Below, one piece after another: positions 7,718 through 56,386 of a stretch of 64,000 bases of DNA. Position numbers and translations under genes: made by a program. Numbering within the stretch: position 1 is the stretch's first letter; every line of letters begins with the position of its first letter. The DNA comes from Geomonas agri (lineage in GTDB: Bacteria; Desulfobacterota; Desulfuromonadia; Geobacterales; Geobacteraceae). Where the stretch lies: contig NZ_JAINZO010000002.1 of NCBI RefSeq assembly GCF_020179605.1, positions 1,426,001 to 1,490,000 of the forward strand, written 5' to 3'. The notes below the pieces were generated by a model that saw only the letters and a list, made by a program, of their open reading frames with translations, was not told the DNA's origin and searched no databases.

Positions 7718-9516
7718 GCAGCAAGGCTGGGTACCACGGCGTTATCCTCAGCATCGACCTCTCCACGGGGAAGGCTCAAAAGGTAGCCATTCCATCGGAA
7801 GATCTTGATAACTTCGTCGGGGGGCAGGGGCTCGGTATCAAGATTCTTTATGACCGACTCAAGAAGCCGGGAGTCGACCCGCTATCGCCGGAAAACCCCC
7901 TAATCTTCATGCCCGGGCCTTTCTCGGGACTTCCGGTTCCCTCCTCCTCCAGAACCTGTGTTGTGACCAAGTCGCCAATTACGGCTCCCCGAAAAAGCGA
8001 CTTTTCCCATGCCTCGACCGTTACCTATTCGAACATGGGCGGTTTTTTCGGACCGGAAGTCCGGTTCGCAGGCTACGACGGGATGGTCATAACCGGCAAG
8101 GCACCGGTGCTGTCTTACCTGGTCATCGACGACGCAAAGGTGGAGATCCGTGACGCTAGCAAGTTCAAAGGGATGCGGACGGATGCCTTTGACAAGGCTA
8201 TTCTTGAAGAACTTGGCGATCGTAAGTACAAGACGGTCTATATCGGACCTGCCGGGGAGAATCTCGTTCCCTACTCCAGCATCCTTCATACCGCCGGGAG
8301 GGCTGCGGGCAGAGGGGGCGCCGGTTGCGTGATGGGTTCCAAGAACCTGAAGGCGATTGCGGTGCGGGGCACTGGGCAGCCCGGCGTTGCCGATCATGCC
8401 GGGTTTCTTTCGGCACTGGACAAGGCCAGGTCGGTCCTTAACGGTTCGGCGTATGCAAAGTCGTGGGCGGAACAGGGAACGGCCCGGGGCATTGTCGGCA
8501 ACAGCAACGCCGGAACCGAGGCCGTCCGTAATTACCGGGAAGGGACCTTTACCGAAGCCGAGAAGATTGGCGCTGGAACAGCAAGGCGCGACGTCTGGGT
8601 GAGAGATATCGCCTGCTACTGTTGCCCGCTCGCTTGCAAAAAGAGCGGGATGACCAAAGGGAAGTACGGCGGGATTGTCCACGATGGCCCCGAGTACGAG
8701 ACTGGAGTCATGCTGGGCTCCAACCTGCTGATATCCGACATGGCGGGCCTGCTTAAGGTAATTACCAGCATCGACGATCTCGGCCTTGACCAGATTTCGA
8801 CCGGAAACGTCATCGGCTTTCTCATGGAAGCCTATGAGCGAGGGATGATCAATCGGGGCTTTCTCGACGGAATCGATCTCAAATGGGGAAGTGTCGATGC
8901 GACGCTTGCCATAATTGAAAAGATCGCCGCCAAGGATGGCGTAGGAGCCTTGGCGGCCGGGGGGGTGAGAGCCTTGGCGTGGCAGATTGGCCAGGGCAGC
9001 GAAAAATTTGCCATCCATGTGAAAGGGCTTGAGCTGGCCGCACACAACATTCAGGCCAACCTGCCCCGGGGGCTTTCCTACGCAACCGCTTCTAGGGGAG
9101 CTTGCCATATGAGCGGGGACAACGTCGCCATGCAGAACAGACGGGCCATACTTGATTCGACCGGCATGTGCTTTTTCCCCACCTTCGAGCCAGCCCTAGA
9201 AGAGCCTATGCTCTCTCTGCTGAGCGCAATAACCGGGCGGCAGTTCGATAAGGCAGAGTTTGAGAAAACTGGCGAGAGGATCTTCAATCTGGAGAAGATG
9301 TTCAACTACCGCGAGGGGTTTCGCCGTGAAGACGACCGGCTCCCCGACCGCTTTTTCGATGACGCCTTCACCCTTGGGCCGAAGAAGGGAGCGGTGCTGA
9401 ACCGGGATGTCTTCGAGATGACCCTGACTGAGTATTACAAAGAACGCGGATGGGACCCGGAAACGACCAAGCCGGGAGCATCGAAACTCAAAGAACTTGG
9501 GCTGCATTATCTTTGA
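7714..9516 (+). CDS. Aldehyde:ferredoxin oxidoreductase, tungsten-pterin type
   Basis: A 600-aa AOR-family enzyme of normal length. The N-terminal domain begins GVILSIDLSTGK and carries FVGGQGLGIKILYD, typical of the family. The Fe-S cluster ligands are C-x2-C-x3-C in CYCCPLAC plus a later Cys in DSTGMCFFP. These enzymes bind a bis-pterin tungsten cofactor and oxidise aldehydes to acids, or run in reverse. No signal peptide is visible, while the coupled partner gene just upstream has a Tat signal, so export could be by hitchhiking or the Fe-S partner could keep the signal uncleaved. Physiological direction and substrate are not readable. Confidence 0.95.
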   Translation: MSSKAGYHGVILSIDLSTGKAQKVAIPSEDLDNFVGGQGLGIKILYDRLKKPGVDPLSPENPLIFMPGPFSGLPVPSSSRTCVVTKSPITAPRKSDFSHASTVTYSNMGGFFGPEVRFAGYDGMVITGKAPVLSYLVIDDAKVEIRDASKFKGMRTDAFDKAILEELGDRKYKTVYIGPAGENLVPYSSILHTAGRAAGRGGAGCVMGSKNLKAIAVRGTGQPGVADHAGFLSALDKARSVLNGSAYAKSWAEQGTARGIVGNSNAGTEAVRNYREGTFTEAEKIGAGTARRDVWVRDIACYCCPLACKKSGMTKGKYGGIVHDGPEYETGVMLGSNLLISDMAGLLKVITSIDDLGLDQISTGNVIGFLMEAYERGMINRGFLDGIDLKWGSVDATLAIIEKIAAKDGVGALAAGGVRALAWQIGQGSEKFAIHVKGLELAAHNIQANLPRGLSYATASRGACHMSGDNVAMQNRRAILDSTGMCFFPTFEPALEEPMLSLLSAITGRQFDKAEFEKTGERIFNLEKMFNYREGFRREDDRLPDRFFDDAFTLGPKKGAVLNRDVFEMTLTEYYKERGWDPETTKPGASKLKELGLHYL

Positions 9517-9583
9517 AAACACGTCAGGGGCAAATAGAAAGCCGTGCAGGTTGCACGACGCAAATAGCCCAAAAGGAGCCAGC

Positions 9584-10168
9584 TTGACGACTCAAACGTG
9601 TACTCAGTTACTGCCGGCGTGGCAGAGCTTCTACGTCATGGTCGGTTCTGCTGCAGCAGCAGTCATCGCTATTCAGTTCGTGGTGATCACCCTGATTGCC
9701 AACCTGCGCCGCTCCGTCCCCGCCGAAGCCCTCAGCGCCTTCGCTACGCCGACGGTGGTCCAGCTGGGGAGCGCCCTGCTGCTCTCAGCGATAATGAGCG
9801 CTCCATGGCCGTCTCTATGCTCGGTGGCGATCGCGCTTGCCCTGTTCGGTCTGGGCGGGCTCGTTTACAAGGCCACGGTCATCTATCGCGCGCGCCGCCA
9901 AACTTACTACCAGCCGGAGAGGGCTGATTGGATATGGTATGCGCTGCTTCCAGGTATTGCGTATGTGACCATAGCCATCGCCGCCATGTCTTTGTGGTCC
10001 TACCCCTGTCCCGCGCTCTTCGCCACCGCAACCGGTGCCCTCGCCCTTCTGCTGATCGGCATCCACAACGCGTGGGACACCGTTATACATATCGTTGTCG
10101 TAAGGCTCCCCGGCGAGGCTGAGGAACAGGTCAGCAACAAAATATACCGTCCGGATGGAAGATCTTAG
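9584..10168 (+). CDS. Hypothetical membrane protein
   Basis: A 194-aa protein from TTG 9584, chosen because AAAAGGAG ends five bases before it; an upstream in-frame start overlaps the AOR gene and has no such site. It has about five hydrophobic segments: residues ~15-38, 52-70, 72-90, 116-136 and 140-160. No conserved motif is recognised. A strong stem-loop follows the stop. It may be cotranscribed with the AOR gene 67 bases upstream, but no functional link is evident. Confidence 0.7.
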   Translation: MTTQTCTQLLPAWQSFYVMVGSAAAAVIAIQFVVITLIANLRRSVPAEALSAFATPTVVQLGSALLLSAIMSAPWPSLCSVAIALALFGLGGLVYKATVIYRARRQTYYQPERADWIWYALLPGIAYVTIAIAAMSLWSYPCPALFATATGALALLLIGIHNAWDTVIHIVVVRLPGEAEEQVSNKIYRPDGRS

Positions 10169-10197
10169 CCTTGCTGACAATGACGTCCACCTGATAA

Positions 10198-10240
10198 GGG
10201 GCACAACCTGCTGAACAGCTGCCGGGTTGTGCCCTTTCAT
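10198..10240 (+). terminator. Rho-independent terminator
   Basis: A perfect 10-bp stem, GGGCACAACC at 10199-10208 with GGTTGTGCCC at 10225-10234, followed by TTTCATT. It ends the transcription unit of the membrane protein gene. Confidence 0.75.
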
Positions 10241-10528
10241 TAGCTCACAACACCTTTCAAAACTCCTTTCATTATTATGATGGTGCCTAGGCGAATCTGC
10301 TCCCCCAACCTGTCATCGTCTACCTTCCAAAAAATTGGCTCCTCTTGTACCACAAACCGATATTTTTGCCTCCTCTATGCCCTAAAGTCATTTAGCGGTG
10401 ATCAGCTAAGTCCTCGAATCTCTTTATCCGCTTAGGGATCGACTTATGGGTTTTACCCATTGAACAACGGTTAAAGGGTGGTATAAATCCGAGATTGATT
10501 AAAATAACCCAATGTTCTGGAGGTTAGT
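10241..10528. other. Intergenic region with promoter only
   Basis: AT-richer stretch without a credible gene. Apart from the promoter and palindrome listed at 10446-10487, nothing recognised. Confidence 0.5.
10446..10487 (+). promoter_or_regulatory. Sigma-70-like promoter overlapped by a palindrome
   Basis: TTGAAC at 10460-10465 and TATAAA at 10482-10487 are 16 bases apart, 42 bases before the next start. A perfect inverted repeat ATGGGT-TTT-ACCCAT (10446-10460) abuts the -35 box and could be a repressor or activator site for the two-gene unit that follows. Confidence 0.5.
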
Positions 10529-11098
10529 ATGGAAGGTAACACACTCATCATTATCGGATTGGGCGTAATCGTAATAGTCCTGGCAATCGCAGTGTTCGCG
10601 CTGTTTCAAAAGCGGCAGACTGCAGGCCTGCGCGGTCGGTTTGGCTCGGAGTACGACCGTACCGTCAGGGAAACCGGCAGTCGGGCTCGCGCAGAGGCTG
10701 ATCTGAAACAGCGCGAAAAGCGCGTGGAGCGGCTGAACATCCGGCAGCTCAACTCGGAGGATGCCGCGCGCTTCAAGGACGCTTGGGCCAGGGTCCAGAC
10801 CAGGTTCGTCGACGACCCCAAAGGGGCTGTTACCGAGGCGGATCAACTGCTGGGGGATGTGATGGTGAAGCGCGGCTATCCCGTCGGCGATTTCGAACAG
10901 CGCGCGGCGGATATTTCTGTTGAGCATCCGCGGGTGGTCGAGCATTACCGTGCCGGTCACGAGATCGCCCTGCGGCACGCAAAGGGACAGGCCACGACAG
11001 AAGACTTGCGGCAGGCGATGATTCATTACCGCACCCTGTTCACCGATCTGGTCGGCGAACAAGAGACACCGAGCGTGGTGTTGCGCAAAGACGTATAG
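10529..11098 (+). CDS. Membrane-anchored protein of unknown function, paralogue of next gene
   Basis: A 189-aa protein with CTGGAGGT before ATG 10529. Residues ~5-28 are one hydrophobic helix (LIIIGLGVIVIVLAIAVFALF), so it is a bitopic membrane protein with a charged, largely helical soluble part. The soluble region contains a block (RFKDAWARVQTRFVDDPKGAVTEADQLL) that reappears in the following gene as RSRWDGIQAGFVDEPRRSVEQADNLV. The shared core W-x2-(V/I)-Q-x2-F-V-D-(D/E)-P-x3-(A/S)-V-x2-AD-x-L looks like a conserved helical domain. Function not recognised. It probably forms an operon with its paralogue, 16 bases downstream. Confidence 0.75.
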   Translation: MEGNTLIIIGLGVIVIVLAIAVFALFQKRQTAGLRGRFGSEYDRTVRETGSRARAEADLKQREKRVERLNIRQLNSEDAARFKDAWARVQTRFVDDPKGAVTEADQLLGDVMVKRGYPVGDFEQRAADISVEHPRVVEHYRAGHEIALRHAKGQATTEDLRQAMIHYRTLFTDLVGEQETPSVVLRKDV

Positions 11099-11114
11099 AC
11101 AACGGAGGCTAAAA

Positions 11115-11519
11115 ATGGACGACAAACCTATCGTGAAGGATGAAAGGGCAAAAGCAGGACTTACCACTGCCGACCTCGCCGGGCGCACGGACGCGGGCGG
11201 CCCAGTGAACACTGCTCTCGCCGGGAGAGCAGCCGCACCAGCGGAAGACCAGGCGCCGCTATTGTCCACCAATGAAGCCAACGACCTCCGCAGTCGCTGG
11301 GACGGTATCCAGGCTGGATTTGTGGATGAGCCACGGCGGTCCGTGGAGCAGGCGGACAACCTGGTAGCGGAGGCGATGAAGCGTCTGGCCGAGACCTTCG
11401 CCGATGAGCGGGCGAAGCTGGAGGCCCAGTGGGACCGCGGCGGTGACGTCTCCACCGAAGATTTGCGTTTAGCGCTACGTCGTTACCGTTCCTTCTTCAA
11501 CCGGCTCCTTTCCATCTGA
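11115..11519 (+). CDS. Hypothetical protein, soluble paralogue of preceding gene
   Basis: A 134-aa protein with GGAGG before ATG 11115. It has no membrane helix. The N-terminal ~50 residues are Ala/Gly/Asp-rich and probably disordered. The C-terminal 80 residues carry the same W-x2-IQ-x2-FVDEP-x3-SV-x2-AD core as the upstream gene, and both end with a related segment (STEDLRLALRRYRSFFNRLL versus TTEDLRQAMIHYRTLFTDLV). The pair therefore looks like a membrane and a cytoplasmic version of one helical domain. Function unknown. Confidence 0.75.
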   Translation: MDDKPIVKDERAKAGLTTADLAGRTDAGGPVNTALAGRAAAPAEDQAPLLSTNEANDLRSRWDGIQAGFVDEPRRSVEQADNLVAEAMKRLAETFADERAKLEAQWDRGGDVSTEDLRLALRRYRSFFNRLLSI

Positions 11520-11546
11520 TCACCACACCACATCATGTCCACATCA

Positions 11547-11581
11547 CCACCGCCTGGTCGGATTCCCCAACCGGGTGGTGG
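11547..11581 (+). terminator. Probable terminator stem-loop
   Basis: A 12-bp stem with two G-U pairs: CCACCGCCTGGT (11547-11558) against AACCGGGTGGTGG (11569-11581). No T tract follows, so strength is uncertain. Confidence 0.45.
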
Positions 11582-11663
11582 TCTCCCCTCAAGTCTCCCC
11601 CTCACGTGAATACTGTTAGCCGCAAGCTAAGGGTAAATCGACCGTCGCCTAACGCGACGAGCC

Positions 11664-12125
11664 AGTCACCGAACGCGTTGCACGAGTCGCCGAACGCGTT
11701 GCACGAGTCACCGAACGCGTTGTACGAGTCGCCGAACGCGTTGCACGAGTCGCCGAACGCGTTGCACGAGTCGCCGAACGCGTTGCACGAGTCAACGAAC
11801 GCGTTGCACGAGTCACCGAACGCGTTGCACGAGTCACCGAACGCGTTGCACGAGTCACCGAACGCATTGCACGAGTCACCGAACGGGTTGCACGAGTCAC
11901 CGAACGGGTTGCACGAGTCGTCGAACGCGTTGCACGAGTCACCGAACGCGTTGTGCGAGTCACCGAACGCGTTGCACGAGTCACCGAACGTGTTGTACGA
12001 GTCACCGAACGCGTTGCACGAGTCACCGAATGGGTTGCACGAGTCACCTACCGCGTTGTGCGAGTCACCGAACGTGTTGGACGAGTCATCGAACCCGATG
12101 AGCGAGTCATCCAACCCGTCGAGTG
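11664..12125. repeat. Tandem array of 22 copies of a 21-bp repeat
   Basis: Twenty-two units of consensus AGTCACCGAACGCGTTGCAC plus G, each exactly 21 bases, starting at 11664 with no insertion or deletion to 12125; a further degenerate copy begins at 12126. Five of six frames are open through it. Plus frame 2 reads SPNALHE heptads and has a GTG at 11606; plus frame 1 reads VTERVAR heptads but has no start before 11953; minus frames read CNAFGDS and TRSVTRA. Differences between copies fall mostly at unit positions 5, 6, 13, 18 and 19, and are mainly conservative or silent only in the VTERVAR frame. No ribosome binding site was found for any frame, so it is listed as a repeat and not a gene. 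Confidence 0.9.
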
Positions 12126-12157
12126 GGTCACGTACCCGCGGTTACCGGCAAGGCAAA

Positions 12158-12205
12158 GGCATGCTCCGCTTCCGGCGTATAAAAATAAAAAAATTCTGGC
12201 ATGCT
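12158..12205 (+). promoter_or_regulatory. Direct repeats around an AT-rich -10-like box
   Basis: Two copies of GGCATGCT lie at 12158-12165 and 12198-12205, exactly 40 bases apart, with TATAAA at 12178-12183 between them. This is just upstream of the DUF2459 gene and may be its promoter and operator; no -35 box is evident. Confidence 0.35.
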
Positions 12206-12224
12206 TTGCTGCGTGGAGGTTCAC

Positions 12225-12962
12225 ATGGAAAAGCCACGCACCATACCGTCGGTTTTTACACCGCAATGGCTACCACTGGGATCGTTGGTCCTGCTGCTTG
12301 TCACCCTGGCACTTGCGCTCACCGGTTGCGCTGCGGAGAAGAAATGGCAGTACCTGCCGGCGACGAGGGGGGAGGAACGCTCCATCTACGTCATCGCCCA
12401 CGGCTGGCATGCAGGAATCGCTTTGCCGGCCGAAGAACTGGGCGACGAGTTGGGCTTCGTCAGGGAGTACCTGCGCCCGGGGCGCTACTACGAGTTCGGC
12501 TGGGGCGAGGCGGAGTTCTACCAGGCGGACAAGATCACCCCCGCCATCTTCCTAAAGGCCGTGTTCTGGAAAAATCCGAGCGTGATGCATGTCTTCTCCA
12601 TGCCGGCCGAACCGGCTCAGCAGTTTCCGGGTGCTGACATGGTCGAGCTCAAGTTGTCGGCAACCGGGGTGAAGCACCTGAAGGATAGCTTGCGCACCAG
12701 CTTCAAGCTCGATGCGGCTCATCGCCCCCATCCCCTGAAAGGGGGAGCGCACGGCGAATATCGGTTCTTCACGGCGCAAGGGTACTATCTCATCACCCAT
12801 ACCTGCAATACCTGGACGGCCAAGGTGCTGGCAAGCGGCGGCGTGCCCATGGACACCGTCTTCACCCTGCGCTCGGGGGGCGTGATGAGGCAGGCCAAGG
12901 ACGCCAGGAAAGAGTACCTGAAGCTGCGGCCGGATCGCGCTGAGCAGGAAGGGATGCAATAA
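12225..12962 (+). CDS. DUF2459 (TIGR02117) family lipoprotein
   Basis: A 245-aa protein from ATG 12225, five bases after GGAGG; an earlier in-frame start at 12201 lacks a site. The N-terminus is a lipoprotein signal: hydrophobic LVLLLVTLALALTGC with a lipobox (LTGC) Cys at about residue 34. The mature part has IYVIAHGWHAGIALP, FGWGEAEFYQ and THTCNTWTA, blocks typical of the TIGR02117 family of conserved hypothetical proteins. The conserved His, Cys and Asn suggest a papain-like enzyme fold, but the activity is not known. Predicted to be membrane-attached in the cell envelope. Confidence 0.85.
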   Translation: MEKPRTIPSVFTPQWLPLGSLVLLLVTLALALTGCAAEKKWQYLPATRGEERSIYVIAHGWHAGIALPAEELGDELGFVREYLRPGRYYEFGWGEAEFYQADKITPAIFLKAVFWKNPSVMHVFSMPAEPAQQFPGADMVELKLSATGVKHLKDSLRTSFKLDAAHRPHPLKGGAHGEYRFFTAQGYYLITHTCNTWTAKVLASGGVPMDTVFTLRSGGVMRQAKDARKEYLKLRPDRAEQEGMQ

Positions 12963-13027
12963 GGCACGAAGGATGGTATATATTCTTGGCTAGATTGGAA
13001 AATGCCAATGTCTGTCGGGAGGGGAAG

Positions 13028-13768
13028 GTGCGAGCGCCAGCGGGTCCGGAAAAGGCTTCAGAAATCATGACGGCACTGGTGCCGCCGGCACAGTGGGCCG
13101 TCTACGCCGAGTTCATTGCCGAGGCCTCCAGGCGCGGCATACCCTTTGCCGTGGGGGGCGGGCTGGCGGTGTCGGCCTATTCAGACTGTGTTCGCAACAC
13201 CAAGGACATGGACATCTACATCATGGAGAAGGACAGCCGGATAGTGATGGAGATCTCCCGGGAGCTTCGCTTCACCGAGTACACTACCGTCCCCTATGAT
13301 CCCACCTGGAGCTACCGCAGTTGCCGCGACGGCTACATCCTTGATTTCTTGTGGAAGATGCTGAACGGAAGGGCCTGGGTTGACGAGAACTGGGTGACCA
13401 AGGGGTGGGAGCTCAAGGTCAGGGGCACCGCCTTCAGGCTCCTCCCCGTGGAAGAACTGGTCTGGTCGAAGCTGTACATCATGAGAAACGACCGTACCGA
13501 CTGGCCCGACATTATCAGCCTGCTCTACGCCCGCGGTGCCGAGCTTAACTGGCCGCGGCTGCTCGCGAACCTCGGGGAGGACCGGCTGCTGTTGGGGGGC
13601 GTGGTCAGCCTGCTACGCTGGCTCTGCCCCGGTCACGTCAGCACCTTCCCCGATAGCATCTGGGCACCCTTGGGGTTGCTGCCCCCTTCGTTCGACACGC
13701 CCGGCATTGATCGGGACCGGGTAGCCCTCATCAATGGGGAACACCTTTTTCCGGGAGGACTGCCATGA
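13028..13768 (+). CDS. Nucleotidyltransferase-like protein (AbiEii/DUF6036 type)
   Basis: A 246-aa protein from GTG 13028, preceded by GGGAGGGG; ATG 13067 and TTG 12986 are alternatives. The motif GIPFAVGGGLAVSAY with NTKDMDIYI downstream is the GG/S plus DxD arrangement of nucleotidyltransferase-fold proteins. The later LLPVEELVWSKLYIMRNDRTDWPDI resembles the C-terminal helix of AbiEii-like and DUF6036-like proteins. No partner antitoxin is next to it: its stop overlaps the start of a TIM-barrel gene by four bases (ATGA). It could transfer nucleotides to RNA or protein. Function uncertain. Confidence 0.75.
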   Translation: MRAPAGPEKASEIMTALVPPAQWAVYAEFIAEASRRGIPFAVGGGLAVSAYSDCVRNTKDMDIYIMEKDSRIVMEISRELRFTEYTTVPYDPTWSYRSCRDGYILDFLWKMLNGRAWVDENWVTKGWELKVRGTAFRLLPVEELVWSKLYIMRNDRTDWPDIISLLYARGAELNWPRLLANLGEDRLLLGGVVSLLRWLCPGHVSTFPDSIWAPLGLLPPSFDTPGIDRDRVALINGEHLFPGGLP

Positions 13769-14547
13769 AAATCGGAGCGATGAACCACCCGCGTCAGGAT
13801 CCCGCCCAGGAGATCCGACGCTTTGCGGAGATGGGACTCGATTTCATCGACCTGACGTTGGAGCCGCCGGCCGCGGGGTGGTGGCAGTGCGACGTCGAGG
13901 AGGTGGCCAGGGCGCTGACCGATGCCGGGATGGGAATCGTCGGGCATACCGCCTATTACCTTCCCATCGCCCATCCCTTCGAGGAGGTGCGGCGTGCGGC
14001 GGTGGAGGCGCTGACGCATTCAGCCCGCGTCTTCGCCAAGCTCGGGGCGCGGGTCATGAACATACACCCGGACGCCCATGCGCCGATGCACGACCGGGAC
14101 TTCGTGATAGGCCAGAACCTGAAGAGCCTGGCGGAGGTGATGGCGGCTGCCCAAGGGAGCGGCGTGCGGATCATGGTCGAGAACCTGCCGCGCAACTTCA
14201 ATACGGCGGCCCAACTGGCGGAGCTGCTCGATCCCCTGCCGGAACTGGGGCTGCACCTGGACATCGGTCACACCGAACTCATGCTGAAAACAAGCAGCGC
14301 CGACGAGATCATCGAGCGCTTCGGCTCGCGTCTGCTGCACGTCCACCTGCACGACAACAAGGGGGGGGACGCTGACCTCCACCTCCCCCTCGGCGCGGGG
14401 ACTATCGACGTCGCCAGACATCTCACCACCTTGCAGCGCGCAGGTTACGACGGCACCATCACCCTTGAGGTGTTCACGCCCGACGCCGCCTTTTTGAAGT
14501 ACAGTGCCGACCGGCTGCGCGCCATGTGGAACGAGGCGCGGCAGTGA
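13765..14547 (+). CDS. Sugar phosphate isomerase/epimerase (xylose isomerase-like TIM barrel)
   Basis: A 260-aa AP-endonuclease-2/xylose-isomerase-like barrel. Likely divalent-metal ligands are visible at strand ends: E in VENLPRNF, D and H in HLDIGHTEL, H in LLHVHLHDNKGG, and E in TLEVF. Family members isomerise or epimerise sugars or inositol derivatives in the cytoplasm. Translation is coupled to the nucleotidyltransferase-like gene upstream by an ATGA overlap. The gene is convergent with the methyltransferase. Substrate cannot be assigned. Confidence 0.88.
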   Translation: MKIGAMNHPRQDPAQEIRRFAEMGLDFIDLTLEPPAAGWWQCDVEEVARALTDAGMGIVGHTAYYLPIAHPFEEVRRAAVEALTHSARVFAKLGARVMNIHPDAHAPMHDRDFVIGQNLKSLAEVMAAAQGSGVRIMVENLPRNFNTAAQLAELLDPLPELGLHLDIGHTELMLKTSSADEIIERFGSRLLHVHLHDNKGGDADLHLPLGAGTIDVARHLTTLQRAGYDGTITLEVFTPDAAFLKYSADRLRAMWNEARQ

Positions 14548-45931: not shown

Positions 45932-47503
45932 TCAAGGGGTAAATTCTCGCTCCAAGGCCTTGCGGTCAATCTTGCTGTTGGAGGTGACCGGTAGGGCCGG
46001 CCGGCAGATAATTCGCTCTGGAATCATATACTTAGGTAGGTGCGCTCCACACAGTCCGATGAGGTCCGCCGTTTCCAGGATTGCGCCCTCGGCGTGGGAG
46101 ACGTAGGCTACGATGCGGCTGCCGGTGAGCTCGTCGGGGATGGCGATCACCGCCGCCTGCCTGATTTCGGGATGGCTGTTCAGGACCACCTCGATTTCGT
46201 CAAGTTCCACACGGAAGCCCTTGCTCTTCACCATGTGGTCCTTGCGCCCAGAGAATACGAAGTTGCCGCCGTCGTCCAAGCGTACCAGATCGCCGGTCCG
46301 GTAGGCCCTGGCGTGGCTGGCGGGATTGCGGGGGTCCGGAGTGAAGTGGGCGGCGGTGCGGACGGGATCGTTCCAGTAACCAAGGGCAACCGTCGCGCCC
46401 AGGACGTACAATTCCCCCTCGCGCCCGGGTTCGGTCACCACCTCTCCTTCCTCGTCGATGGCGAAGACCTCGAAGTTGGGGAAGGGGGTTCCGATCGGTA
46501 TCTTCCAGGCTTCCTGCGGAAGCTGTTCAGGGACCCGGAAAAAGAGCGAGGAGTTGGCCTCGGTCTGGCCGTAGATGTTGTAGAAGGCGGCGGCCGGCAT
46601 GAAGCGCTTGAGGACCTTCAGGTACTTGACCGGCATCAGGTCGCCCGAGAAGTGAACCAGGCGCAGCCGTGGCAGTGTGAGCCGCTCCAGGGCCCCCTGG
46701 TCGGCCAACTTAGTCAGCACCGACGCCACCGAGTTCCATACCGTGATCTCTTCGCGCTCAAGGAACTCGGCGAGCCGCACCGGGAATGCGGAGAGCGCCT
46801 CAGGCACCAGCACCACTGTCCCGCCGCCCTTGATGGCGCAGAAGATGTCGAAAATGGAGAGGTCGAAGTGCAGCGGCGCGTGGTTGGCGAGGCGGTCGCC
46901 TGCGCCTATGGCGAAGAACTCCGTCGCCATGTCAATGAAGGTGAGGGCGTTCAGGTGGGAGATGACCACGCCCTTGGGAGAGCCGGTAGAGCCGGAGGTG
47001 TGCAGGATGTAGGCGGGGGACACGCCGCATACCTGCGGAGATAGTGGTGGACGTGGTTGCGGCTCCAGACTGTCCCAGGCGATTAGCTCTACCGTGGGGA
47101 GTGCGCAGCAGGGTGTCGTTACCACCGCCTGCTCCAGTTTCAGCCCTTCGCCCCCCTCCAGGATGATCCGTTCCAAGTGCTCCGCCGAGGCGACGGCGAG
47201 CCGTATTCCGCAATGGTTGATGATGGAGCAGAGCCGCGGCGCGGGAGACGCGGGATCGAGCGGCACGTAGACCGCACCGGCCTTGAGGATGGCGAAGACC
47301 GCGACGATGCATTCGATGGACTTGTTGAGGAGGATGCCCACCCGGTCGCCGCGCCTGACACCGTGGCCGATCAAAAGGGCAGCCAGCCCGTTGCTTGTTT
47401 CATCCAGTTCCCGGTAGGAGAGCGCCCGGTCCTTGAACAGCACGGCCTGCCGTTCCGCGAACCTTGCCGCACTGTGGGTCAAAAGCTGTTGCAGCAGGTA
47501 CAT
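45932..47503 (-). CDS. Amino-acid adenylating enzyme, stand-alone (NRPS A-domain-like)
   Basis: A 523-aa ANL-family ligase, the length of a lone A domain without carrier. Motifs: [16 protein letters not shown] (A3, residues 168-183), LHFDLSIFDI with D214, the Asp that holds the amino group of the amino acid, YGQTEANSS (A5), YRTGDLVR (A7), GRKDHMVKSKGFRVELDEIE (A8) and catalytic K511 (NSKIDRK, A10). It should make an aminoacyl-AMP and load the carrier protein encoded five genes upstream. It closes the six-gene operon and starts 18 bases after the dehydrogenase gene. Substrate code read by hand is tentative (see findings). Confidence 0.9.
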   Translation of the reverse strand: MYLLQQLLTHSAARFAERQAVLFKDRALSYRELDETSNGLAALLIGHGVRRGDRVGILLNKSIECIVAVFAILKAGAVYVPLDPASPAPRLCSIINHCGIRLAVASAEHLERIILEGGEGLKLEQAVVTTPCCALPTVELIAWDSLEPQPRPPLSPQVCGVSPAYILHTSGSTGSPKGVVISHLNALTFIDMATEFFAIGAGDRLANHAPLHFDLSIFDIFCAIKGGGTVVLVPEALSAFPVRLAEFLEREEITVWNSVASVLTKLADQGALERLTLPRLRLVHFSGDLMPVKYLKVLKRFMPAAAFYNIYGQTEANSSLFFRVPEQLPQEAWKIPIGTPFPNFEVFAIDEEGEVVTEPGREGELYVLGATVALGYWNDPVRTAAHFTPDPRNPASHARAYRTGDLVRLDDGGNFVFSGRKDHMVKSKGFRVELDEIEVVLNSHPEIRQAAVIAIPDELTGSRIVAYVSHAEGAILETADLIGLCGAHLPKYMIPERIICRPALPVTSNSKIDRKALEREFTP

Positions 47504-47521
47504 GGCGTTCTCTCTTTGCCC

Positions 47522-48670
47522 CTAGAGCCCCAGGAAGCTGGCGATGATGTTGCGCTGGATCTCTGATGTACCGGAATAGATCTTCCCGGCGATGGCGTCG
47601 CGCAGGTTGCGCTCGAAGTCGAATTCGGTGGAATAGCCGTAGGCGCCATGGATCTGAAGTGCGTCGGTGGCGTTTTGCACGTAGCTCTCGCTGATGAAGA
47701 GCTTGGCCATGGCTGATTCCAAGGGCGCCCGTCGCCCGGCGCTTTTCAGTCCGGCAACCCGGTGCAGCATGAGGCGGGAGAGTTCGACACGCAGCTTCAT
47801 GTCTGCGATCTTGTGCGATACCGACTGGCACTTGCCGATTGCCTGGCCGAACTGGCGCCGCTGCCGGGCATACTCGACGCACTCCTCAAGGATCTTATCC
47901 ATGGCCCCGAGGTGGGCGGCGAAGAGGCAACTCCGCTCCCATTCCATCTCGGAGTTGAAGATGGCGGCGCCGCTTCCCTCCGCTCCCAACCGGTTTTCCT
48001 CGGGGACCTCGCACTCCTCCAGGAAGACCTCACCCAAGGGGCAGGTCCTGAGCCCCATGGTCTCCAGGGGGCGTCCCACGGAAAAACCCGGGGTTCCCTT
48101 CTCCACGATGAAAGCAGAGACGCCGGCGAAACCCTTGCGTGGGTCGGTGACGGCAAAGACCAGCAGGAGGTCGGCTATCGGGGCGTTGGTGATAAAGGTC
48201 TTGGAGCCGTTAAGGAGGTAGTGATCACCGCGCTTCTCGGCCCGGCAGCGCATGCTGAAGGCGTCGGACCCAGCTTCCGGCTCGGTCATGGCGTGCCCCC
48301 CCTTGGCTTCCCCGGAGATGAGACGGGGTAGGTATCTTTCTCGTTGTTGGGGGGTGCCGAAGCGGTGGATAGGGGATTCGCAGGTCCAGATATGGGAGTT
48401 GAGCGAGAAGATGAGGCCGCTGTCGAGGCAGGCGTAGCCGAGCCCTTCCATGGTGGCGACGGCAGTCATGGTGTCCAGCCCGAGCCCGCCGTACTCCTCG
48501 GGCATGGTGATGCCGGGGATGCCGAACTCGGCGCATTTACGCCATCCCTCTTCGGAGAATTCGCAGCGCTTCTCGCGCTCCTTGGCCCCCTGGTTCAGGT
48601 TGCGCCGGGCGAACTCGATGGCCATCTGTTTGAAATTTTCCTGGTCGGTGGTGAAGCCGGTCGTGTCCAT
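47522..48670 (-). CDS. Acyl-CoA dehydrogenase-like flavoenzyme, probably acting on carrier-bound aminoacyl
   Basis: A 382-aa protein from ATG 48670. It has the ACAD fold: GGHAMTEPEAGSD (FAD/substrate), YLLNGSKTFITNA, RRQFGQAIGKCQSVSHKIAD and HGAYGYSTEFDFERN. The usual base, Glu of the IYEGT motif, is Ser 366 (IYSGTSEIQR). A Glu at 245 (MEWERS) sits where isovaleryl-CoA dehydrogenase and prolyl-carrier-protein dehydrogenases keep theirs. Together with the carrier protein and adenylating enzyme, this suggests desaturation of an aminoacyl thioester rather than fatty acid breakdown. Electron acceptor unknown. Confidence 0.9.
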   Translation of the reverse strand: MDTTGFTTDQENFKQMAIEFARRNLNQGAKEREKRCEFSEEGWRKCAEFGIPGITMPEEYGGLGLDTMTAVATMEGLGYACLDSGLIFSLNSHIWTCESPIHRFGTPQQRERYLPRLISGEAKGGHAMTEPEAGSDAFSMRCRAEKRGDHYLLNGSKTFITNAPIADLLLVFAVTDPRKGFAGVSAFIVEKGTPGFSVGRPLETMGLRTCPLGEVFLEECEVPEENRLGAEGSGAAIFNSEMEWERSCLFAAHLGAMDKILEECVEYARQRRQFGQAIGKCQSVSHKIADMKLRVELSRLMLHRVAGLKSAGRRAPLESAMAKLFISESYVQNATDALQIHGAYGYSTEFDFERNLRDAIAGKIYSGTSEIQRNIIASFLGL

Positions 48671-48696
48671 GTGCGCCTCGCGGGCCGGCTGCGGCC

Positions 48697-49353
48697 TTAC
48701 AAGGTGAAGAAGATAGAGGCGAGGCCGTAGTGGGGAGGTCGCCCCGCCTCCTGCTTCAACACGTTGAAGGTGCCGATGGAAACTTGTTGCAGTTCTTTGA
48801 TAGCTGCGATGTAGCGGTTGCGGGCCTGCTCGTCCAGGGAGCTTTTTAGCCCCTCGCAGGCGTAGATCAGGCATTTAAGCGGGCGTTCAACATGGGGGAG
48901 GAGGCACCCCCGTGGCCCCAGATGGGCGCAGCGTGCTGCGGGAGGACGTGCTGTCCGCTCGCTCGGGTGTCCTGGCTCCAAGCGCCGGCATGCCGCCCCC
49001 AGCCGCATGCGCAGGTACTCCGCCAAAGGCGGTGCAGGCTGGCTGGCGTACCCAGTGACACTGCAGCCAGTGTGCCGGCGCAGCCAGTAATCGATGGCGG
49101 TGAAATAGTTTTCGGCGGGTTCCCGGCAGCAGCCCCCTTGGCACCGGTCGCAGCGGGCATAGGAGGGGAGGTTCAGGGAGGCGATGGCGAGCTGGGTGGC
49201 AACCCGGTCCCGGTTCAGCTGCTCCAGGGCCTCGCGGGCCGGTGGCGACAGCTCGTGGTCCTGGTTCAGCAGGTCGTGGCTCAGACTGGCCACGCGCTGG
49301 AACATGCGGTATGGCCTGGAAAAGTGCCAGAAGTTCTGGAAGTCCCGGCGCAT
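48697..49353 (-). CDS. YkgJ-like cysteine-rich protein
   Basis: A 218-aa protein with GGGGGAG before ATG 49353. It has two Cys groups: CDRCQGGCC around residue 68 and CAHLGPRGCLLPHVERPLKCLIYACEG near 145-170. This pattern resembles the YkgJ/YcgN zinc- or iron-sulfur-binding proteins, which often sit beside peptide-modifying or biosynthetic genes, but the spacing is longer than in the core family. Many Arg and Gln residues; no membrane helix. As part of the operon, it may bind metal for one of the enzymes. Role unknown. Confidence 0.7.
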   Translation of the reverse strand: MRRDFQNFWHFSRPYRMFQRVASLSHDLLNQDHELSPPAREALEQLNRDRVATQLAIASLNLPSYARCDRCQGGCCREPAENYFTAIDYWLRRHTGCSVTGYASQPAPPLAEYLRMRLGAACRRLEPGHPSERTARPPAARCAHLGPRGCLLPHVERPLKCLIYACEGLKSSLDEQARNRYIAAIKELQQVSIGTFNVLKQEAGRPPHYGLASIFFTL

Positions 49354-49373
49354 GTCACTCCCCCGCTGCCCGC

Positions 49374-50360
49374 TCAGCCTTGGTCACGCTTGCGCTGGGC
49401 CACTCCTGACAGCGCATAGATCATGGCCCAGGCAGCCAGGTGCGAGGAGTAGCCGTGCGGGTCCTGTCCCGGGTAGACCTCGACGAAGTCGAGCCCGTCG
49501 ATGCCTGAGCGCCCGATGGTCTGGAGCGCAGGGAGCAGTTCCGTGGGCAAAAGCCCGTTGAAGTCGGCGGGGCCGCCCGGGTTGTAGCCGGCATCGATGC
49601 AGTCGCTGCAGATGGTGACGAAGACGTGCCGGGTCTTTTCATGGGCGATGGCGATTGCCTCCTGGGTCACCTCCACCATCCCCCGCTCACGGATCTCCTT
49701 GGTGGTGAAGATGTGCGCCCCCATGCTGCGGGCGTACTCATACTGCGCCGGTGAATTCCTCGGGCCCCTGATCCCCATGTGTACGATACTCTCCTTGCGC
49801 ACGTGGGGGAGTTGCGCGATCCGGTGCAGCGGGCCGCAACGCGGGAAGAGGTCGGCTCCGAATGACTTGGCGTTGTCCAGGTGGGCGTCGAAGTGGATGA
49901 TGCCGATCTCTCCCTGGCCAGCCTCGCCGAGCGCCCTAACGATCTCGGGGGTGAAGGAGTGGTCGCCGCCCAGCACGAAGGGAATGCTGTGACTGCGGTA
50001 GACACCCAGCATCGCCTTATGCACGTTAGCCATGGTCTCGACCGGGTCATTGGGGTTGACCGGGACGTCCCCCATGTCCCCCAACTGCAGATGGTCGAAC
50101 AGGTCGATCTCGTACTCGGGCAGGAAACCGCCGTAGCGCGCCGATGCATGCCTGATGCTGCGCGGTGCGAGCTCGCAACTGCTGAAGGAACCCCAGGTCA
50201 CGGTCCCCTCCCAGGGGACCCCCGCTACGATGACGTCGCAGCCGGCCGGGAGGTTGCGCGGGTCGAGCACCGGGACGCCGAGGAACGACGGGGTGTCCCC
50301 GTACACCCTTGGCAGGGATGCTTTTCGATTGGGAACCATGGGGATCTCTTTGCTGTTCAT
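49374..50360 (-). CDS. Ureohydrolase-family enzyme (agmatinase/arginase fold) with altered metal motif
   Basis: A 328-aa protein with AAAGGAG before ATG 50360. Family motifs are GGDHS (residues 131-135, His 134) and FDAHLD (157-162: D158, H160, D162), which are two of the three manganese motifs. The third, normally SFDxDxxDP, reads CSDCIDAGYNPGG (251-263), so the two Asp are D253 and D256, three apart rather than two. It would hydrolyse a guanidino or related C-N bond to release urea or a similar leaving group. In the operon it could act on a guanidino amino acid such as arginine or agmatine; substrate unproven. Confidence 0.88.
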   Translation of the reverse strand: MNSKEIPMVPNRKASLPRVYGDTPSFLGVPVLDPRNLPAGCDVIVAGVPWEGTVTWGSFSSCELAPRSIRHASARYGGFLPEYEIDLFDHLQLGDMGDVPVNPNDPVETMANVHKAMLGVYRSHSIPFVLGGDHSFTPEIVRALGEAGQGEIGIIHFDAHLDNAKSFGADLFPRCGPLHRIAQLPHVRKESIVHMGIRGPRNSPAQYEYARSMGAHIFTTKEIRERGMVEVTQEAIAIAHEKTRHVFVTICSDCIDAGYNPGGPADFNGLLPTELLPALQTIGRSGIDGLDFVEVYPGQDPHGYSSHLAAWAMIYALSGVAQRKRDQG

Positions 50361-50384
50361 GGTGGCTCCTTTGCGGTCACGCCC

Positions 50385-51035
50385 CTAGCGTGTGCCGTGG
50401 ACGGTTACGTACAGCTTTTTCGACAGCAGCAGGCGCGTCGCCCTGACGCGCCTGAGTTCGCGCCAGCGCAGGGTCCGATGCACCCAGAGCGCCGGTACGT
50501 TATCGGCCCAGAAGAACCCGTAGGCCTTGGTCACTCCCCTCTTTTTCAGTAAGTGCAGCATGCCGTTTTGCAGGGCCGCAGCGATATTCCCGCCACGGTG
50601 TGCCGGGTCCACGAACATGTCGAAGGTGTAGGCCTCCCCGGGGTGGCACCGTATCCCCAGCCATTGTTCGTCGGGGTGGCTGCCGGGGCCTGGACCCTGT
50701 TGACAGTCTGCGCACCAGACGTCTCCGACCACCGTGTTTCCCTTCACCAAGCCAAAGCCGCGGTACCCCTTGCCGAGGTAGCTGAGCGCCTTCAGGTACC
50801 TGCTCTGGAACCGGTACCTGAGGTGCCGTTCCCCGAGGAGTTCCCCGCTCAGTTCCATCACGGCTTCGTCGGCAGGGCGGGTGAAGTCGGTGACCGGGCG
50901 CAGTGCGTCGAGCGCTATCTCCACTGGCACCGCAACCCGGTTCAGGTAGAAGATTTCCCCCAGCAGGCTGCGCCAACCGGAGATGAGAACCTTCTCGTGG
51001 GCCTGCACCAGTCGCATCTTGCAGTACTGAAACAT
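50385..51035 (-). CDS. GNAT-type acetyltransferase
   Basis: A 216-aa protein from ATG 51035, four bases after GGGGGA; an upstream start at 51086 overlaps the carrier protein gene. Residues ~60-200 show a GNAT shape, with FVDPAHRGGNIAAALQNGMLHLLKKRG as the acyl-CoA binding motif (R/Q-x-x-G-x-G/A region) and a following beta strand FFWADNVPALWVHRTLRWRELRRV. The N-terminal ~60 residues are helical. It probably acylates an amine, with the substrate either free or on the carrier protein. Part of the six-gene operon. Confidence 0.82.
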   Translation of the reverse strand: MFQYCKMRLVQAHEKVLISGWRSLLGEIFYLNRVAVPVEIALDALRPVTDFTRPADEAVMELSGELLGERHLRYRFQSRYLKALSYLGKGYRGFGLVKGNTVVGDVWCADCQQGPGPGSHPDEQWLGIRCHPGEAYTFDMFVDPAHRGGNIAAALQNGMLHLLKKRGVTKAYGFFWADNVPALWVHRTLRWRELRRVRATRLLLSKKLYVTVHGTR

Positions 51036-51060
51036 CAGTTCCCCCAACGCTCGAGTGCCG

Positions 51061-51318
51061 CTACTCCTTGGCCGTAAGTTTGACATTTATGAACTGCGCC
51101 ACTGCCGATATGGTTTCGAAATGCTCGGGCACTATCTCGGTGTCCGAGATCTGTACTCCGAATTCCTTTTCCAGGTAGGCAATCAGTCTTTGCACCCCCA
51201 GGGAATCGACGATCCCCTTGTCTATGAGGGAGTCGGAAGGAGAGAGGGTGGCTTTGGGGCCGGGACCTGCCATCTCGTTTTCTATGAACGATCTGATGGT
51301 ATCGGTGTAATCGGTCAT
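51061..51318 (-). CDS. Stand-alone acyl/peptidyl carrier protein
   Basis: An 85-aa carrier from ATG 51318 after GAGGAAG. The phosphopantetheine site is DSLG in GIVDSLGVQRLIAYLE, with Ser 39. The fold is the usual four helices; the first segment (TDTIRSFIENEM) and the conserved VPEHFETISAVAQFI segment match stand-alone ACP/PCP proteins. It is the first gene of the operon and needs a phosphopantetheinyl transferase, which is not in the window. It should hold the aminoacyl group made by the adenylating enzyme. Confidence 0.92.
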   Translation of the reverse strand: MTDYTDTIRSFIENEMAGPGPKATLSPSDSLIDKGIVDSLGVQRLIAYLEKEFGVQISDTEIVPEHFETISAVAQFINVKLTAKE

Positions 51319-51450: not shown

Positions 51451-51545
51451 CTTTGGCACGCACCTTAGTGTACAGTTGCGCGATTGGCTGTCAAGGGTGG
51501 TCTTTTTTGTTCCACTGGGGTGGGCAAAGATGGTACCTTTGCGCA

Positions 51546-55965: not shown

Positions 55966-56040
55966 TGGTGATCCCAAGGGGACTTGAACCCCTGTTACCG
56001 ACGTGAAAGGCCGGTGTCCTAACCACTAGACGATGGGACC
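55966..56040 (-). tRNA. tRNA-Glu (TTC)
   Basis: 75 nt including encoded CCA. On the minus strand: acceptor GGTCCCA with TGGGATC, D arm with AGTGGTTAGGA, anticodon loop CTTTCAC (anticodon TTC), T arm GGGGTTCAAGTCCCC. Last gene of a Lys-Glu-Lys-Glu cluster. Confidence 0.95.
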
Positions 56041-56112
56041 AAATTGTTGCATCCCGTCCCATCAGGGTTGGGGGCTGTCGCAAGGCCCAGTCATGCGACA
56101 GTGGAAAAAGGG

Positions 56113-56188
56113 TGGTGAGCCGCGTTGGGATCGAACCAACGACCACCTGATTAAAAGTCAGGTGCTCTACCAACTGAGCTAGCGGCTC
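56113..56188 (-). tRNA. tRNA-Lys (TTT)
   Basis: 76 nt including CCA. Acceptor GAGCCGC/GCGGCTC, anticodon loop CTTTTAA (anticodon TTT), T arm TTGGTTCGATCCCAA. Identical to the copy at 56311-56386. Confidence 0.95.
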
Positions 56189-56229
56189 GCTTAAGCTTTG
56201 TGCCGAGGCACAAGCGCTGTTTGTTTGAG

Positions 56230-56307
56230 TGGCGTCCCCAGCCGGATTTGAACCGGCGTCGCCGCCGTGAAAGGGCGGTGTCCTGGGCCGGGCTAGACGA
56301 TGGGGAC
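56230..56307 (-). tRNA. tRNA-Glu (TTC), second type
   Basis: 78 nt including CCA. Acceptor GTCCCCA/TGGGGAC, anticodon loop CTTTCAC (anticodon TTC), T arm CCGGTTCAAATCCGG. The D loop is GC-rich (AGCCCGGCCCAGG) and the body differs clearly from the tRNA-Glu at 55966-56040. Confidence 0.92.
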
Positions 56308-56310
56308 GGG

Positions 56311-56386
56311 TGGTGAGCCGCGTTGGGATCGAACCAACGACCACCTGATTAAAAGTCAGGTGCTCTACCAACTGAGCTAGCGGCTC
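56311..56386 (-). tRNA. tRNA-Lys (TTT)
   Basis: 76 nt including CCA, identical by eye to the copy at 56113-56188. First gene of the cluster, three bases before the second-type tRNA-Glu. Confidence 0.95.

Follow-up and report, generated by a model that had tools for sequence, protein, structure and literature searches.

A putative carrier-protein acyl cassette with an arginase-fold enzyme bearing a metal-site cysteine in Geomonas agri

Results

A six-gene operon predicted to process a carrier-bound amino acid

We analysed a 64,000-nucleotide stretch of the Geomonas agri genome (the window; contig NZ_JAINZO010000002.1, positions 1,426,001 to 1,490,000) and, within it, a minus-strand operon at positions 45932-51318. 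With a probability of about 0.5, this operon is a cassette that loads an amino acid onto a carrier protein, oxidises it there and transfers the acyl group by means of a GNAT-fold acyltransferase, probably to an amino sugar. We infer the reactions, the substrate and the acceptor; what we observed is gene order, homology, retained catalytic residues, co-occurrence and genomic neighbourhoods. A stand-alone adenylating enzyme (hereafter the ligase) would adenylate a polar alpha-amino acid and load the carrier protein, and a flavin dehydrogenase would then oxidise the bound aminoacyl group, at the alpha-beta or the C-N bond, to a dehydroamino acid or an imine. An arginase-fold enzyme would most likely hydrolyse a C=N bond, either in a guanidino or amidino precursor or in the imine made by the dehydrogenase, and the GNAT protein would move the finished acyl group from the carrier onto an amine. 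Outside the Geomonas group the acceptor would most likely be an amino sugar of a surface polysaccharide; none is encoded near the cassette in Geomonas.

The initial annotation had described six minus-strand genes separated by 18-26 bases, and this layout was borne out: the open reading frame check returned six intact frames in that order, with gaps of 25, 24, 20, 26 and 18 bases. The gathering thresholds of the Pfam models PP-binding, Acetyltransf_1, Arginase, Acyl-CoA_dh (N-terminal, middle and C-terminal) and AMP-binding were all passed. The GNAT gene probably starts at 51035 rather than 51086, as judged from its start codon and homologues. The next gene downstream of the ligase, hpt, lies 139 bases away, so the ligase is probably the last gene of the operon. 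The features are as follows.

51061..51318, minus strand: acyl/peptidyl carrier protein, 85 amino acids (PP-binding; phosphopantetheine site in GIVDSLG)
50385..51035, minus strand: GNAT-fold acyltransferase, 216 amino acids, proposed off-loading enzyme (Acetyltransf_1)
49374..50360, minus strand: arginase-fold enzyme with Cys251 replacing the first Asp of the DxD metal motif (Arginase profile)
48697..49353, minus strand: Cys-rich protein, family unassigned (sequence motif CxxCxGGCC ... C ... RPLxC)
47522..48670, minus strand: acyl-CoA-dehydrogenase-like flavoenzyme of the prolyl-carrier-protein dehydrogenase type (PDB and NCBIfam relatives)
45932..47503, minus strand: stand-alone adenylating enzyme, pocket code DLFNHSISSK (AA-adenyl-dom, motif mapping)
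51467..51494, minus strand: promoter-like site TTGACA-16-TACACT upstream of the carrier gene (10/12 consensus bases); two such sites were found in the region against 1.0 expected, which makes this weak evidence

The gene set is gained or lost as a whole

Of 48 genomes from the bacterial family, 16 carry the genes for the arginase-like protein, the dehydrogenase and the ligase together (G000, G007-G009, G011-G015, G020-G023, G025, G028 and G033), and close relatives of none of the three were found in the other 32, with thresholds of at least 65% identity for the arginase-like protein and E <= 1e-130 for the dehydrogenase and ligase. Ten further family genomes gave only weak arginase-like matches, at 24-33% identity. 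An empty site was visible in three of seven cassette-free congeners (G016, G017 and G019), where a radical-SAM gene and hpt stand divergently 200-202 bases apart; the same two genes are about 5.7 kb apart in the window. The remaining four congeners carry the radical-SAM gene, with hpt unmatched at the limit used.

The closest named relatives of the arginase-like protein were those of Geomonas paludis and G. anaerohicana (97% identity). A contig scan for this family, which relied on two short peptide patterns and therefore missed distant members, returned 31 loci, of which 20 (L050-L069) are accompanied by one or more cassette partners and 11 (L070-L080) by none; the dehydrogenase present at L078 is unrelated. 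Among 395 genomes drawn from the phylum, a sample that takes in the G. agri genome itself and two others of its family, five genomes matched at E <= 1e-60. A core of carrier, acyltransferase, arginase-like protein, dehydrogenase and ligase is retained in Nitrospirae, Deltaproteobacteria and Syntrophaceae metagenome-assembled genomes (MAGs), with altered gene order at L058, L060, L061, L064, L065, L066 and L068; L058, L064, L066 and L067 are truncated by contig ends, and for several loci, which are on MAG contigs, the organism given may be incorrect. Comparison of gene order across genomes, proposed in the initial annotation, thus found the neighbourhood conserved in relatives and not absent from them. 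That the genes are a stray neighbourhood without a shared pathway might be suggested by the apparently unrelated genes flanking the Geomonas cassette; this explanation is very improbable and is largely refuted by the way the genes are present or absent together across 48 genomes, the empty site and the recurrence of the same set in several phyla. The cassette, which recurs in bacteria of soil and sediment, is a real unit, gained or lost whole.

The Cys-rich gene is a local add-on and not part of the core. It was present at 11 of the 16 family loci, missing from the five of lowest identity, and was seen in Geomonas/Citrifermentans relatives only. The initial annotation had called its product YkgJ-like, a label we dropped: neither Pfam (at E 0.01) nor NCBIfam gave a match for the protein, a Pfam search up to E 1 returned only a phage family at chance level (E 0.23), and YkgJ / CxxCxxCC matched neither the window protein nor two homologues up to E 1. 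What is left is a resemblance to the YkgJ motif. The fold model (pLDDT 55) was too poor for use.

Proposed activation, loading and oxidation of an amino acid, probably other than proline

The carrier scored 32.7 bits against PP-binding (gathering 20.8), and the Ser attachment site, in DSLG, was kept in 20 of 20 aligned members. In the PDB it is related to peptidyl carrier proteins, PltL among them; it remained below the NCBIfam equivalog cut-offs for the ornithine-lipid acyl carrier protein OlsHI (44.0 of 130 bits) and the cispentacin acyl carrier protein AmcB (51.2 of 80 bits). The ligase passed the NCBIfam AA-adenyl-dom model (367.8 bits, cut-off 317.4), and the prolyl ligase 6o6e_B is among its PDB relatives. 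We read its pocket code by motif mapping, not from a structure, using GrsA numbering. The code DLFNHSISSK was found in 13 of 18 readable ligases (from 19 aligned rows, the incomplete L066 being dropped); the others were DLFNHSVSSK, DLFNLSLSSK, DLFNISVSSK, DLFNISLSSK and, at L061, DIFYVALVIK. The first Asp and last Lys typical of alpha-amino-acid enzymes are retained in these codes. The ligase substrate is likely a polar alpha-amino acid other than proline.

The best solved relative of the dehydrogenase was the prolyl-ACP (acyl carrier protein) dehydrogenase 4irn (424.7 bits), and its best NCBIfam models were PigA (444.8 of 500 bits) and RedW (439.4 of 650 bits). The presumed catalytic Glu is kept, on the helix that holds the base in this dehydrogenase group. 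An extra Glu four residues earlier (SEMEWER) is absent in 4irn and L061 and kept in 19 rows, namely the window and L050-L069 minus L061 and L067; L067 had no row in this alignment. At L065, EtfB, EtfA and an Fe-S (iron-sulphur) membrane protein are encoded upstream in the same gene run as the cassette, and a similar Fe-S membrane protein was recognised by reading at L060, as a true dehydrogenase would need. Here and below, "by reading" means that a neighbour was identified by recognition rather than by a search.

The PDB contains relatives from prolyl systems for all three proteins (dehydrogenase, ligase and carrier), which raises the alternative that the assembly of anatoxin, pyoluteorin and prodigiosin is paralleled here: L-proline would be loaded and dehydrogenated to a 1-pyrroline-5-carboxyl- or pyrrolyl-carrier. 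The inner code of stand-alone proline enzymes is L(L/F)YLALVC, according to the available text of PMC3874040. Counting the flanking D and K, the window ligase shares only 4 of 10 residues with this code. Of the 17 further readable codes, 16 agree with it at 4 to 6 positions. The locus that fits proline best is L061, with a 7/10 proline-like code and a dehydrogenase still closer to 4irn (464 bits); the extra Glu of the other dehydrogenases again argues against proline. Proline loading is therefore unlikely, and the mismatch of the ligase code led us to set aside a plain pyrrole pathway as the preferred explanation and makes a plain pyrrole product unlikely in the window. Of the pyrrole-type logic cited in the initial annotation, activation of a carrier-bound amino acid with a flavin dehydrogenase of the prolyl-carrier type is supported. 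A predicted cysteine code, DLFNLSLIWK, was matched by the window ligase at 6 and by L060 at 8 of 10 positions. The residues narrowing the Cys pocket of PchE are Ile-Trp, as described in the accessible parts of PMC8807600 and PMC11253843; these positions are Ser-Ser here, and the cysteine reading was kept as a hint only.

The GNAT protein as putative off-loading enzyme and the surface polysaccharide neighbourhood of relatives

The GNAT protein matched Acetyltransf_1 at 24.3 bits in the longer frame and 24.6 bits from the 51035 start (cut-off 20.7), and its AlphaFold model had a mean pLDDT of 84.8. Of 15 aligned members, 10 also matched this profile, with E values up to 0.01. At L069 a hexapeptide transferase occupies the slot of the GNAT gene, between the carrier and the arginase-like gene. 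The genome holds two further carrier-ligase sets. In L089 (G000:C4:30000-49900, about 9670-13095) a ligase, an NAD-synthase-like protein and a carrier are joined by a hexapeptide transferase, encoded beside the carrier gene; L090 (G000:C1:807000-826900, about 9041-14539) encodes a ligase, a carrier, an NAD-synthase-like protein, an asparagine-synthase-like protein and a GNAT. Acyltransferase types are thus swapped among carrier-ligase sets (L069, L089 and L090), as a transfer role predicts. The GNAT protein is better explained as an off-loading acyltransferase, a role that would also account for the lack of a thioesterase remarked on in the initial annotation.

The nature of the acceptor is suggested by the cassette loci that do not belong to the Geomonas/Citrifermentans/Geobacter UBA9964 group. 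These are the 13 loci L057-L069, 12 of which could be assessed, L066 being too short to judge. Polysaccharide genes stood clearly near 11 of these 12 (ten by family search, L060 by reading) and less clearly near L057. Geobacter sp. AOG1 is one host whose cassette occupies a polysaccharide cluster. The neighbouring genes comprised a UDP-GlcNAc 2-epimerase (L058), a polysaccharide pyruvyl transferase (L059), a glycosyltransferase (L061), DegT aminotransferases (L062 and L065, the latter also with a polysaccharide-synthesis dehydratase), a hexapeptide transferase and XrtA-type proteins below their cut-offs (L063), a bacterial sugar transferase (L064), an ABC exporter ATPase with a hexapeptide transferase (L067), a polysaccharide deacetylase (L068) and a polyprenyl glycosylphosphotransferase (L069). 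L057 has an aminotransferase by reading and, by search, a FemAB-type protein and a phosphopantetheinyl transferase, the gene for the latter being one gene away from that for the carrier. At L042, too, DegT, ABC exporter and hexapeptide genes were present.

Several observations weigh against transfer of an oxidised amino acid to a surface sugar. Reading of the frames gave no polysaccharide gene near the cassette in the window or at L050-L056. The GNAT protein matched no NCBIfam family and reached a best E of 0.11 in the PDB profile search, so that it is too diverged for its acceptor to be named. The dehydrogenase fell under every NCBIfam equivalog cut-off shown, PigA and RedW being its closest relatives nonetheless. 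At L061 the code is proline-like and no GNAT was detected, and L057 has, by reading, a nonribosomal-peptide-synthetase-like protein downstream, so that the product may feed a peptide in some hosts.

A cysteine in the metal site of the arginase-fold enzyme

The most interesting point of the cassette is the arginase-like step. The protein matched PF00491 at 207.3 bits (cut-off 22), and its six metal-ligand columns read HDHDCD in 33 of 33 distinct members, the first Asp of the DxD motif being replaced by Cys. This alignment had 34 rows (the window, the 31 loci, L093 and L094), L094 being identical to L070. Ordinary relatives from the same bacterial family read HDHDDD in 13 of 13 distinct aligned sequences, taken from 14 rows in which the G. 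agri paralogue is identical to L039; three of the 13 are 98% alike. Of the 15 control loci, L032 and L035 stand outside the alignment: L035 reads DMD by pattern and L032 lacks a readable frame. The protein remained below the NCBIfam cut-offs for agmatinase (110.8 of 302 and 101.2 of 174.3 bits), arginase (52.5 of 227.6) and formimidoylglutamase (110.6 of 229.15). With a canonical metal ligand lost, a typical ureohydrolase was rejected; the fold named in the initial annotation holds, and the urea release implied by its label of ureohydrolase cannot be taken for granted. The guanidino product that it considered is possible.

The best solved matches were 7esr/7oi1, which at only 117.5 bits are the nearest solved relatives and which the literature identifies as a guanidine hydrolase. 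Five of the six metal ligands and the guanidine-binding Glu are shared with the nickel guanidine hydrolases (GdmH and the Nitrospira guanidinase), as far as these are described in the available text of PMC11410670. The metal ligands reported there are all His/Asp, in contrast to the Cys found here in place of the first DxD Asp. By alignment and the guanidinase numbering of that text, with which 9fek agrees, R174-C175 of our protein corresponds to H222-T223.

Across cassette and free-standing members 67 positions are invariant, including Glu294, IRGPRN and CSD, whereas Arg12, Lys13, His71, His179 and Cys254, among others, set cassette members apart from most free-standing ones. In the tree, cassette members formed one clade of 21 tips with support 52 (87 with L093 included), and the whole Cys family had support 92. 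At 10 of the 11 free-standing loci (L071-L080, not L070) amino-acid-type ABC transporter genes were found, by reading or shared families. An ornithine-cyclodeaminase (OCD)-family gene stands at L072, L074 and L075 (family search) and at L080 (by reading), together at L080 with a DAO-type oxidase (family search). L070 has DUF362/Lar_N, and an MttB-type methyltransferase lies in L095, the surroundings of L093. These neighbourhoods would suit an enzyme that acts on a small free nitrogen compound. The Cys-type proteins of L071-L080 may belong to an unrecognised catabolic pathway.

It is possible, though doubtful, that the enzyme is a true amidinohydrolase that acts before the ligase and makes the loadable amino acid from a free guanidino or amidino compound. 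The invariant positions shared with free-standing members, the transporters and four OCD-family genes near the latter, and the guanidine hydrolase as best solved match would all agree with this, against which stand the lost metal ligand and the cassette-specific His179, Cys254 and Arg12/Lys13, differences that may mean another substrate. Quite unlikely is a second alternative, in which the enzyme hydrolyses a carrier-bound imine, so that the cassette performs oxidative deamination on the carrier and delivers a 2-oxoacyl group. The chemistry of the arginase fold is an attack of water on a C=N carbon, enzymes that make imines co-occur (acyl-CoA-dehydrogenase type, ACAD; DAO at L080), as do imine-using OCD/ketimine-reductase-like enzymes, though below curated cut-offs, and the basic Arg12/Lys13 of cassette members could dock the carrier protein. 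The invariant double-Arg motif, also present in free-standing members, would rather suggest a small free carboxylate substrate, and we know of no arginase-fold enzyme of the kind that hydrolyses carrier-bound imines. An iminohydrolase form of the sugar-transfer cassette, in which the bound amino acid is dehydrogenated, the Cys-ligand enzyme opens or hydrolyses the C=N on the carrier and the GNAT or hexapeptide transferase fixes the acyl group to a cell-surface amino sugar, seems improbable as a complete scheme. With 33 distinct members seen, this arginase-fold family would, if the proposed cassette is correct, allow one to test, with a handful of small proteins, whether a classic fold has acquired new C=N chemistry or a new metal.

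Comparison with known systems

The pyrrole modules PltF/PltL/PltE, PigI/PigG/PigA and RedM/RedO/RedW use the same three enzyme classes, PigA and RedW giving the best NCBIfam models; the operon differs in scoring below the curated cut-offs and in lacking a pyrrole-using partner. A stand-alone ligase, a carrier and an ACAD-type dehydrogenase are likewise shared with the AnaB/AnaC/AnaD prolyl-carrier module of anatoxin (4irn), as outlined in the available text of PMC6053186, whereas our operon has arginase-like and GNAT genes, no polyketide synthase and a non-proline code. A precedent for transfer to an amino sugar is the O-antigen of Flavobacterium psychrophilum: in the accessible part of PMC6519341, UDP-Qui2NAc4N is the predicted acceptor of a group that an acyltransferase takes over from a dedicated carrier. 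This wfp pathway resembles the relatives described here in placing a dedicated carrier and a predicted amino-sugar N-acyltransferase in a polysaccharide cluster; its acyl group is predicted there to come from fatty-acid-type enzymes and not from amino acid activation. In lincosamide synthetase, a stand-alone A-domain loads an amino acid on a carrier and the product is amide-joined to an amino sugar; the condensing proteins are different, and the available text of PMC4351081 names neither an ACAD-type dehydrogenase nor an arginase-fold enzyme.

The initial annotation had not recognised this composition, and our literature searches for the gene set or the ligase code likewise gave none on it among the papers listed, as judged from the listings: the parts are known, and their combination in a compact unit was found in none of these papers. 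If the proposed cassette is correct, thiotemplate amino acid chemistry, mostly associated with antibiotics and toxins, would also build surface-sugar decorations, and would do so in anaerobic metal-reducing and sediment bacteria.

Other features of the window

Two observations concern the window outside the operon. A tandem array at 11664-12109 repeats a 21-base unit about 21 times (89% matches) and lies in an open frame that would encode ESPNALH repeats. On the minus strand, four tRNA genes at 55966-56386 alternate as Glu-Lys-Glu-Lys.

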